64,000 nt of DNA from Utricularia gibba (taxonomy: Eukaryota > Streptophyta > Magnoliopsida > Lamiales > Lentibulariaceae). The translations under genes were made by a program, and so were the position numbers. The notes beneath the pieces were generated by a model. It did no database searches. It saw only the letters and a list, made by a program, of their open reading frames with translations, and was not told the DNA's origin. Below, in pieces: positions 5,799 to 13,794 of this stretch (the first letter of the stretch is position 1; every line of letters begins with the position of its first letter). The stretch is taken from the NCBI GenBank assembly GCA_002189035.1, contig NEEC01000009.1, positions 3,038,001 to 3,102,000 of the forward strand. The letters run 5' to 3'.

Positions 5799-6761
5799 AT
5801 GGAATCATGGCGCATGCCTTTTGGCACTTCATCCTCCTTCATGGGGAATGGAGACTTGCTGTTCCTCGGTAACTTTTTGTGTTCGTGTGTTGCTATGTGA
5901 AGGGGCAACTGAATTTCTTCCGTGTCTTTTTGTCTGGGTTTCAGGGGCAGGATCGTTGATGGGCGTGGAGGAAACCAGGAAGAGAGGGCAATTTATGCTG
6001 CACGATGAAGACTACTTCGACGACCAGTCGCCGGAGAAAAAACGCCGCCTCACGCCGGAGCAGGTATCCGTTTTTCTTTTTTGTTTTTGATCATGTCGTT
6101 CAAGTTGAAAATGGGTAGTAAATATGGCTGTAGGTGCAACTTCTAGAGAAGAGCTTTGAGGAGGAGAATAAGCTGGAGCCGGATCGTAAGTCCGATCTTG
6201 CTAAGAAACTGGGCCTGCCGCCGCGACAGGTGGCGGTTTGGTTCCAGAACCGCCGTGCCCGGTGGAAGGCGAAGCAGCTTGAGAAAGACTTTCATCAGTT
6301 GAAATCGTCATACGGTTCCCTTGTCTCGATCTTCGAATCTGTTCTCCATGAAAACCTTGACCTCAAATCTCAGGTACACAATAATTTCATTTTTTTGTAT
6401 TATTTTTATATATTTAAATATTTTGATATATGTAAGATTTGTGTCCGCGTTGCAAGTGCAGCTCCTGTCCTTGCGGCAGATGTCGGAAGCAAAAGAAGCC
6501 GAGTCGGACGCGTTGAGAAAACAATCCGGGGAGTCGCTTCCCAAGGAGGCCACTCTGTCGGCTCACGTGACGGCGCGGGGTGGCGGCGCGGTGGCGGATG
6601 AAGACAGCCGTCAGCCCGGATCCTACATTCCGGACAACCATTTCCCAAGCTGCACTGCTGATGTTTACTGCCTGAATTCCGAGGAGGACGACGGTTACCG
6701 GAGCGACATCTCGACCGTGTTCGGCTCGGCGGAGGAGCTGGGGTCGTTGATCTGGTCCTAA
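5799..6761 (+). CDS. HAT5: Class I HD-Zip transcription factor, ATHB1/HAT5-like
   Basis: Four exons (5799-5868, 5945-6063, 6134-6373, 6462-6761) give about 242 residues. The N terminus (MESW..., then LLFLG and EETRKR) resembles ATHB1. An acidic [18 protein letters not shown] lead-in opens the homeodomain, with [11 protein letters not shown] in helix 3. A leucine-zipper heptad region starting [11 protein letters not shown] follows directly, the class I arrangement. The C-terminal part is acidic and aromatic and ends SLIW. It is a nuclear DNA-binding factor expected to recognise CAATNATTG-type sites. The start is set by the first in-frame ATG and by the homology. The short ORF upstream suggests translational control. 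Confidence 0.9.
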
Positions 6762-7572: not shown

Positions 7573-10500
7573 ATGGCGGCGGATTCTTCGGTTGGAGGGG
7601 ATGGTGACGACGGTCGTAAAGAAGGTGATAACGATGACCAGACGTTAAACGGAGCCAGCCAAAGTGGTAGTGACAACTCCTATAATGTGGTTGAGGAGAG
7701 CGATTCATCTGAAGATGAGGTCAGCCGTTCTTCTTCCTGTATTTTCCACTGAATGTCATCAGTTTAGCCAAGTCTTCTTCGTATGAATTAGCTTACTGTT
7801 GTGTGGATACGCTGGAATTCCTTCTTATCAGGTTGCGCCTCGTAATACAATTGGAAATGTTCCTCTGGAATGGTACAAGGATGAGGAACATATTGGATAC
7901 GATGTAGCTGGGAAGAAGATTAAGAAAAAGGAAAGGCAGAATAAGCTGGACTCTTTTTTAGCAAGTGTTGATGACTCCAAGAATTGGTGAGTTTTCTTAT
8001 TTGAATTTCAGATGTTTGAATTCCGTACGTACCGTGTTGGTGTATGTCAGGATCTCAGTTACGCCGATTACGATGTTTCATTATTTTGTTTATGCCATCA
8101 CTCAGGCGTAAAATATATGATGAGTATAATGACGAGGAAGTGGAATTAACTAAAGAAGAGGTCAAGCTTATACGTAGGCTGGTTAAAGGAAAGGCTCCTC
8201 ATGCTGATTTCGATCCATATGCGGTGCATGATTTAACCTTTCTTTTGTTTACCTTCTGGGTTTCTATTGTTTTTTTATGCTAATAAGTCTTTTGAACTAC
8301 ATTTTCAGCCTTATGTTGACTGGTTTAAATGGGATGGTGCAAAGCATCCTATATCTAATGCACCTGAACCTAAGCGCCGTTTCATTCCTTCAAAATGGGA
8401 GAGCAAGATGGTGAATTCCCTCTTCTAAATTTAATATTTCTTTTTTTCATCAATAAAAATGTCTGCTTCTAGTTTCTTTGGTTTGCTATTAATGTGCAAT
8501 ATTCTGCCTTGCTATAGTCTTCGCTATAATATGAATCCTTATAGGTGGCCGCTAATGTATCCTCTTGCATCCTCTTTATTATAAATATTTGTTTAATGTC
8601 TTCTCAGCTTAGTGGTGACTTTTAATGAATTAATTTTCTGATGTTACCTATTAGTGTTATTAGACCTTTTGTTAAGGTTTCAGTCTTATATATCATGCGT
8701 ATCTTCTATGCCATTCGAGTAGGGTCTTGTGGAATTACTGAAAATTGGCTTGGCCTTACATTTCTCTGGCTTATGCATGGATTCTATTACATGAGTGTGA
8801 AATCTATTCTTTATTTCAGATGAGGAAAAAATCTTATGGGATGTTATGTTGAGTTGGGCCTTTGAATCCAACCATTAATTCTACATAGTATTTTGAGTTT
8901 TCAGGTTCTTCGGTATGTTCGAGCTATTAGGAAAGGGATTAGGTTTGGTGACCTGGCCAAGGAAGAACCAAAATACTATTTACTGTGGGATGATTCTGAC
9001 CCTGTAGAAAGACAGGGGTTGGCATATATTCCTGCACCAAAATTGAAACCTCCAGGTGGTCACCTCTACCATAGCTGCATATGACTTGTTTTCCAGGATA
9101 TCATTAGATTGCCCATCCGAAATAGGAATCTTTGACATTTCTATGTTTTTAGCTATTCCTAACATATCTATTTCCATATCAGGTCACGAGGAATCTTTCA
9201 ATCCTTCTCTAGAGTACATTCCAACTCAAGAAGAGCTGAATTCATACCAGCTCATGAATGAGGAAGACCGGCCAAAATTTATTCCTAAGCAGTAATTCCT
9301 TGTCCACTTTCTGACGTTGATGTTTGCATCATTCTATCATCATGAGCTTTGATGACTCATTTTCTATTTAAATTTTAGGTATCTATCCTTACGAAGTGTT
9401 CCTGCATATGACAAGCTTGTCCAAGAAGAATTTGATCGTCATCTAGATCTTTATTTATGCCCCAGAACTCGCAAAAAACGTGTATGTGTAACGATGCCAT
9501 TTTTCATTTTCTTTATGAATTTATTTAGGAAAATAAAATCCAGAGCCAATTCCAATTACTGGTTGCACTACTATTCCAGCTTAATATTGATCCTGAGGCA
9601 TTGAAACCGAAGTTGCCTAGTTTGAAAGATCTCAAGCCTTATCCGAGTATTTGTTATCTGGAGTACAAAGGACACAAGGGTCCAGTCACAAGCATATCCA
9701 CGGAATCCACAGGGCAATGGCTTGCTTCAGGTATAACGTTGCAAATGTTTCTACTTTTGGCAGGTTCTTACTGTGTTTTATACTGTGAAGGATCAATGGA
9801 CTGCACTGTTCGTGTTTGGGAAGTTGAGACTGGAAGATGTCTTCGTGTATGGAATCTAGAGGAGCCGATTACTGAAGTCGCGTGGAATCCTCTTCCTCAG
9901 TGCCCTGTGCTGGCAGTAGCAGTGTAAGTAATATCCGGTACCGTGATTTTCATCTTGTTTAAGATGCTGGTATGTTTATTGGTTAAGCTTGTCTTTGTTT
10001 TCAGGGGACAAAGTGTACTTATTTTGAATTCCCGGTGTGGAAGTGAAGAACAACAAAAGGAGGTTGAAGAACTTCTGCGAATTGAACCACAAAATCCAAG
10101 TTCATCTGGTGTGTATGAGTGAGCCTTATAAATCAAGGAACTTTCATTTTTCTGAGGTCTATTTTTTATTGTTACAGATGCAGAAGCATCTACTGTGAGC
10201 TGGATTCGGGATGACACTCACCAGGGAATCAGGATGAAGCATTTTAAGGTTTTTTGTAGTTTAGATTATCCTCATATTTCTATCTGGTGCAGTCTTTTAG
10301 ATTCCTACGTTCTTCCTATTCTGCTTTTTTATGATTATAAGTTCGAGGGTTGTCTTTTTCTTGCAGACTGTTACTAAAGTGGAATGGCATCGTAAGGGAG
10401 ACTTCCTTTCGGCACTTTTGCCATTTGATATCCTTTATAGGGCTGTTGATTTAGCTTGATGATTTTGTAGTTTATGGTTGTTTTGAGTTTTATGCATCCG

Positions 10501-11981
10501 TCATGATAATGAAAGCATAAATGTTTTTAGCTCCATAGGTCTTCTTTCAAGCTTTGGTATGGTTCTAATAAGGTGCTGCTGTTTTTCTTAACTGCTGTTT
10601 ACGTGATTCAAAGTCAGTATTAATTCATCGGCTTTCCAAGAGGACTACCCAACGAATTCCATTTAAGTCAAAAGGAATTCCCGTTGCTGCAATTTTTCAT
10701 CCTACTCGCTCTATATTTTTCAAGGCAACAAAGAAGAGCGTTAGTGTCTATGATTTGTTAAAGCCAAGGCTAATTAAAAAGCTTGATGCTGGTGTTCGTG
10801 AGATCTCTTCTTTGGCAATTCACCCTGGTGGTACGTAATTTCAATCTTGTTACATGTTCTGCTTGATTTCTGTCATAGTGAACAAACTCCTGAAGGCATG
10901 TATGCTTACACTAATTTATCCTATGATCACTATCATTTTTTTTTCATATCAGGTGATAATGCTATTGTTGGTAGTAGAGACGGAAAATTGTGTTGGTTTG
11001 ACATGGATCTTTCATCACAGCCTTACAGAACGCTGAGGTATATCATAATTTCTAGGATTTCCTTTGTTCTTCTATTGATTTTATATTTAAGATTTACATT
11101 TCCCTCACTTTTCTCTTCTAATCATCCGTTTTCCATAACCAACTACTCCCCTCATAAGCCTGGGACCTACTTTCTTAGTGACATTGTAGCCGCATAGAAA
11201 GATAGTGTTTTTTGAGTTATATCCTAATGCTGCCGGCTTTAGTTATTCGTTTTTTTAAACTAGTCATTGTGATATAAACTTAGTCTTGTTGAATTTTTAT
11301 CATCATATAACTTAATCTGTAATAATTCTGGATCTGTGGAATGAAACGAAACATGTTCTAATCCGTCATTGGATTGCTCCATCCTAATGTGGAAAGGGTT
11401 ATTTATGCCCGTGAATTCTTAGTAATCCTAAAATCATTAGAGATTTGTAATATTGACAAATCCTTGAGTGGATATGAAACTCTTTGCTTGCTAAGAGTTC
11501 TGGATGTATTCACTTGTTGTGCATATTTGTGCTCTACCATGGATTGACTGCAGTATCCGTTTGCCCCACACGGTCCATACTTTCTTCTGTCAAACTGCCC
11601 AAGTTCATATATTCCATAACATTTGTGTTTACAGATGCCACTCAAAGGATATCAACCGGGTGGCCGTTCACCGTTCATACCCTCTGTTCGCCTCATGTTC
11701 TGATGACTGCACAGCCTACATTTTCCATGGAATGGTTTATTCTGATCTGAATCAGAACCCGCTGATAGTTCCTTTGATCGTGCTCCGAGGGCATTCAGAT
11801 GTGGATGGAAGAGGTAACTAATTCTCGTCAGGAGCATCTTCTACATCCTGATACTCGTTCCAAGATCTTTGATTTGGTCTGTGCTGATACTACAGGAGTT
11901 TTGGACTGTAAGTTCCATCCAAGACAGCCATGGCTGTTCACAGCAGGTGCTGATTCTGTGATCCGGCTCTACTGCCATTAG
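7573..11981 (+). CDS. BOP1: Ribosome biogenesis protein BOP1
   Basis: Sixteen exons join in frame to about 660 residues: 7573-7719, 7832-7986, 8106-8223, 8309-8410, 8905-9055, 9183-9291, 9379-9481, 9580-9730, 9791-9923, 10005-10108, 10178-10248, 10367-10427, 10603-10830, 10953-11037, 11635-11813 and 11896-11981. After an acidic N terminus comes the BOP1NT domain ([36 protein letters not shown]), then WD40 repeats ([51 protein letters not shown]) ending IRLYCH. BOP1 works with PES and WDR12 (PeBoW complex) in the nucleolus for 60S subunit maturation. All introns are GT-AG except the twelfth, which looks like a U12-type AT-AC intron. The protein is somewhat shorter than Arabidopsis BOP1 because its acidic N terminus is short. 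Confidence 0.93.
10428..10602 (+). other. U12-type AT-AC intron of BOP1
   Basis: The exon before ends ...LLPF plus one base, directly followed by ATATCCTTT, an exact match to the minor-spliceosome 5' splice site. A branch-point-like TTTTCTTAAC lies at 10583-10592, and the intron ends TTTAC at 10602, about 11-12 bases past the branch adenosines, the spacing typical of U12 introns. Joining 10427 to 10603 restores the frame ([18 protein letters not shown]) and matches BOP1. No GT-AG pair in this interval does so. Confidence 0.88.
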
Positions 11982-13186: not shown

Positions 13187-13794
13187 ATGGGGATATTGAT
13201 CTCTCTGTTCGTTCTGTTCTTGGCAGTTATAGTTCTGGTCCTGATTCACATATGTATTGTGAGCAGAACTTTGGGCGGGCAGGGAGAAGGAATGGTGTTT
13301 ATGGTGGACACGAGGAGGAGATTGGGGGTAGAAGCATGACACGTGGCGAAATTGAGAAGCTCCCGAGTTTTCATTTCACCTTGCCAGGGAAGACGTCGAG
13401 TCTGGCGGGGGCGGATTGCGCCGTGTGCCTGGAGAATTTCAGGGCTGGGGAAAAGTGCAGGCTTTTGCCTTCTTGTAATCACAGCTTTCACGCTGAGTGC
13501 GTAGATGCTTGGCTTTTGAGAAGCTCCGTTTGCCCCGTTTGCAGAACGGGGGCTAATCTTCGGAAAGATGGTTTCTTTCCTGATAAAATACTCACCCAGA
13601 GTCGTTCTCTTCCAGTTCAAACCACATCATCTGGAGAAAATGAGGTTGCTATTCAGATACGCGAAGGTGTAAATATGGATGGAAATTCATCCATCACCGA
13701 AGTTGAGAAACTCCCTCCATACCTTTCTGTAAATGAAAAAGAAGCAAGATTTGCCCAATCTAATCCTCTTGGGAAGGGAATGATGATCACTTGA
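13187..13794 (+). CDS. ATL-type RING-H2 E3 ligase with a frame break
   Basis: The ATG at 13187 opens a hydrophobic helix (ISLFVLFLAVIVLVLIHICI), the N-terminal membrane anchor expected of ATL proteins. That frame ends at TGA about 13339. The RING-H2 half lies in another frame to 13794: EIEKLPSFHF, then CAVCLENF...RLLPSCNHSFHAECVDAWL...CPVC, with the full C3H2C3 ligand set. The switch falls around 13270-13285 in TTTGGGCGGGCAGGG, and the total length is one base short of a multiple of three, so one missing G would rejoin the halves. The interval is too short for an intron. If real, the alternative start is the ATG at 13252, giving a RING protein without an anchor. Membrane ubiquitin ligase role inferred from family. 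Confidence 0.75.

Follow-up and report, generated by a model that had tools for sequence, protein, structure and literature searches.

The interval 10428-10602 of the window, the 64 kb stretch of Utricularia gibba DNA that we analysed, is almost certainly a U12-type AT-AC intron, the twelfth of the single-copy gene BOP1, and would be spliced by the minor spliceosome. Such an intron had been proposed in an earlier sequence-only reading of the same DNA, and the bases that it described, from 10427 through ATATCCTTT, the branch motif and TTTAC to 10603, all read as it described them. The intron (10428..10602, +) is 175 nt long and in phase 1. Directly at the end of exon 12 it opens with the 5′ splice site ATATCCTTT (10428..10436, +), which agrees with the U12 consensus at nine of nine positions and has the donor form (A/G)TATCCTT(T). 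The branch site TTTCTTAAC (10584..10592, +; TTTTCTTAAC is read at 10583-10592) agrees with TTCCTTRAC at eight of nine positions, the single departure being T for C, and its branch A, either 10590 or 10591, stands 11-12 nt ahead of the intron's 3′ end, inside the range of about 10-15 nt expected of this class. The spacing given earlier was thus right in number but runs to the 3′ end of the intron and not, as had been stated, to the terminal TTTAC. That 3′ splice site (10598..10602, +) ends in AC instead of an AG acceptor preceded by a polypyrimidine tract, and the boundary reads ...TTAACTGCTGTTTAC|GTG. Phase 1 counts as further support, because minor introns show a phase bias of 1>2>0 (PMC10639083).

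The host gene lies complete in the window (7573..11981, +). In a spliced model built by hand, it runs from the start ATG at 7573 to the TAG ending at 11981 in 16 exons encoding 660 amino acids, and 14 of its 15 introns are GT-AG. The predicted product carries BOP1NT (PF08145; 329 bits, residues 64-317) followed by a WD40 propeller (104.7 bits, Pfam), the arrangement of the BOP1/ERB1 family. Human BOP1 matches residues 41-658 (568.7 bits, E = 1.7e-169), and ERB1 of three fungi (yeast, fission yeast and Chaetomium) also matches, so that by domain content and homology the product is plant BOP1/ERB1. It was the sole match in the assembly, and a search of viral contigs for a BOP1 relative found none. 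The neighbouring genes, both named from reading frames alone, are an HD-Zip type homeobox gene upstream (5801-6761, +) and a RING-H2 (ATL-like) gene downstream (13190-13794, +).

We assessed the junction against four homologues, human BOP1 and the ERB1 proteins of yeast, fission yeast and Chaetomium, scoring every in-frame, stop-free donor/acceptor pair in its surroundings regardless of termini. Among these 4,858 pairs, 10427/10603 had the highest summed score (1204), while junctions slid jointly by a few bases scored 1202-1198; homology therefore fixes the length of the intron, and the splice signals fix the exact base. The claim that frame and protein match only when 10427 joins 10603 accordingly stands in so far as this pair is the best of all, with the slid junctions close behind. 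Exon 12 (10367..10427, +; 61 nt) ends ...CCA TTT G and exon 13 (10603..10830, +; 228 nt) opens GTGATTC, that is GT GAT TCA, with the split codon completed to GGT. Removal of intron 12 restores the homologous frame without a gap at the junction relative to any of the four homologues, and over this junction human GDYLAVVLATQGHTQVLIHQLSR, fission yeast GDYLATSSPTSSSQAVLIHQLSR and the yeast protein align gap-free to spliced BOP1.

We regard it as extremely unlikely that a nearby GT-AG junction is the genuine one and that the U12 signals arose by chance. The best such pair, 10444/10614, is in frame and stop-free, but scores only 1146 against 1204, inserts two residues where all four homologues run without a gap, and has a poor donor (GCT|GTTGATTTA) and a poor acceptor; moreover, the ordered set of U12 signals did not recur in any of 100 shuffled sequences. 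The best GC-AG pair scored 1144. GT-AG joins were rejected as the main form on account of the lower score and the two-residue insertion, and retention of intron 12 was rejected as the main form on account of an in-frame TGA at 10457..10459 (+). A second TGA follows directly (10460-10462), and three exon junctions lie 3′ of the pair in the retained-intron message, which makes that mRNA a candidate for nonsense-mediated decay. Within exon 12, 36 nt 5′ of the AT-AC donor, the codons CGT AAG contain a good major-type donor, GTAAGGGAG (10392..10400, +), which was among the scored GT-AG alternatives. It would be an obvious candidate cryptic donor were U12 splicing to fail.

AT-AC termini do not by themselves identify the spliceosome, as a few AT-AC introns are spliced by the major (U2) machinery, among them SCN4A intron 21 and introns of SYCP2 and TAF2 (PMC2831892, PMC8280824). 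Removal of intron 12 in this manner is nevertheless scarcely credible, since in sodium-channel genes the known U2-type AT-AC introns carry G at +5 (PMC2831892), a position held by C in intron 12, and since all nine bases of its donor match the U12 form and a U12 branch site close to consensus stands at the right distance. The minor spliceosome thus remains the preferred agent of its removal.

The significance of the splice signals resides in their combination. ATATCCTTT occurs twice in the 64 kb window against 1.03 expected, which by itself is not significant, and the other copy, which lies opposite BOP1 exon 15 on the minus strand (11652), is a chance occurrence. The ordered set of donor, branch site and AC end at such spacing was found once in the window and in none of 100 shuffles. 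Within BOP1, intron 12 has no mismatch to the U12 5′ splice site, compared to four to six in the other 14 introns, none of which comes within three mismatches. Within intron 14, a U12-like GT-AG pair lies at 11553-11634, GTATCCGTT and TTCCATAAC with one mismatch each, followed by TTTACAG; pairs of this quality occur at chance level within the window. Genome-wide, the ordered AT-AC motif set gave 4 and 6 matches in two length ranges compared to 1 and 3 in a reversed control, indicating that over 100 Mb these motifs by themselves have little selectivity. Upon reading of the flanks, only three matches were intron-like: BOP1, a locus in a kinesin gene (L021) and a third locus (L012). The second AT-AC U12-type intron, at L021 (G000:C3:2522553-2522676, minus), has ATATCCTTA, TTTCCTTGAC and CCTAC and joins a kinesin motor-domain frame. 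L012 (G000:C1:3220293-3220468, minus) is a probable AT-AC U12-type intron with ATATCCTTT, TTTCCTTGAC and GCAC, which joins the open frame ...FAAFK|RAVAETS...; Pfam and PDB searches gave no name for its protein.

The genome also encodes minor-spliceosome components, with U11, U12, U6atac and CENATAC all present, as would be expected of an organism with a minor spliceosome. Single clear matches above the Rfam cut-off were found for the U12 (L005, 86.2 bits), U6atac (L006, 86.9 bits) and U11 (L016, 74.2 bits) snRNA genes. Upstream of each of the three stands a USE, TCCCACATCG, together with a TATA box, a combination of the plant snRNA promoter type. When the snRNAs of this same genome were set against intron 12, AAAGGGU of U11 paired with the donor AUCCUUU over 7 bp, AAAGGA of U6atac with UCCUUU over 6 bp, and U12 with the branch region over 11 bp with one bulged A. 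A CENATAC/CCDC84 gene was found as well; in human cells the homologue promotes the splicing of A-type minor introns, nearly all of which are disturbed upon its depletion (PMC8280824). The Rfam model of U4atac gave no match in the genome, nor did a Pfam search for the U11-48K zinc-finger motif, though in a possibly incomplete assembly a missing match does not amount to absence. Together, the junction evidence, the pairing of U11, U12 and U6atac with the intron and the presence of CENATAC/CCDC84 make it very likely that intron 12 is removed by the minor spliceosome in cells.

In the mechanism that we propose, U11 would recognise AUAUCCUUU at the intron 12 donor and then be replaced by U6atac, while U12 would pair with UUUCUUAAC and leave A10590 or A10591 bulged to act as branch nucleophile. 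With the cut made at AC/10603, the codon G|GT would be joined and the frame of the WD40 propeller restored. Failure of minor splicing would be expected to yield mRNA with the premature stop at 10457 and hence less BOP1. Full-length BOP1 thus appears to require U12 splicing, since retention meets that stop and none of the GT-AG pairs yields the homologous protein.

The sequence-only reading had gone further, holding that expression of this protein depends on U12 splicing and that ribosome production is thereby tied to minor-spliceosome activity. The predicted dependence of BOP1 follows from the stop at 10457 and the want of a GT-AG rescue, but the link to ribosome production is overstated, as it concerns one gene. 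Among the other PeBoW genes, the region of the partner gene PES showed no U12 donor/branch pair, and in a single NLE-domain gene, either WDR12 or its relative NLE1, no U12 intron was found, there being no more than a weak pair 5′ of the NLE domain; this suggests that U12 dependence belongs to a single gene and not to a programme. A further claim, compatible with U12-type splicing of intron 12, is that partial retention or slow removal of the intron acts as a throttle linking BOP1 levels to minor-spliceosome activity. Slow splicing has been reported for U12 introns, with down-regulation of their host genes proposed as a consequence (PMC2426677), a retained intron 12 meets the stop at 10457, and BOP1 RNAi in Arabidopsis causes growth arrest (PMC5014167). 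We nonetheless consider a throttle rather unlikely, given that no U12 intron was found in PES or the NLE-domain gene, and because restoration of QQT1 alone rescues the developmental defects of Arabidopsis 31k mutants (PMC5853960), such that BOP1 need not be limiting. It is possible that intron 12 limits BOP1 output; that it is conserved and rate-limiting in the BOP1 genes of plants, where the capacity of the minor spliceosome would then determine 60S subunit assembly and cell proliferation, is quite improbable.

BOP1 intron 12 exemplifies an established intron class in textbook fashion and, as plants hold hundreds of U12 introns, is an ordinary finding beyond its value as a test case and for annotation. 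As a test case it is clean, with a lone AT-AC intron standing between the plant and its only BOP1 copy, and this single junction could tell whether a 60S assembly factor suffers when minor splicing fails. For annotators it is a warning, because a gene finder restricted to GT-AG introns would miss or distort 10427/10603.

The description of AT-AC termini as the rarest subtype proved overstated, since they account for ~26% of U12 introns in Arabidopsis and ~23% in soybean (PMC7367187), about a quarter, albeit only ~0.06% of all plant introns (PMC6310983). Arabidopsis has ~230 U12 genes (PMC5853960), and functions in RNA processing and translation are already known to be over-represented among the genes that host U12 introns (PMC6865273). 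In a search of main-text literature, we found no mention of BOP1 as a U12 gene, and none of the sources that mention the Arabidopsis gene AT2G40360 deals, by title or abstract, with U12 introns; BOP1 may well already be listed in U12 intron databases or supplementary lists. Cotton BOP1 is described as having 18 exons, with intron types not stated (PMC9456263).

Compared to plant AT-AC U12 introns (U12DB, ERISdb and IAOD sets), intron 12 is alike in its donor ATATCCTTT, branch site TTYCTTAAC, spacing of 11-12 nt, AC end and phase 1, and BOP1, with one minor intron amid many major ones, does not differ in structure from other plant U12-intron genes. CBP20 intron 4 of land plants is comparable as a U12 intron within one conserved plant gene of RNA metabolism; its conservation across land plants is documented (PMC5932401), whereas BOP1 intron 12 is known here from one genome. 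For QQT1 of Arabidopsis, dependence on minor splicing was tested by rescue of a minor-spliceosome mutant (PMC5853960), unlike BOP1, which is known here from sequence; BOP1 would nevertheless resemble it as a gene essential for growth whose expression relies on a U12 intron.
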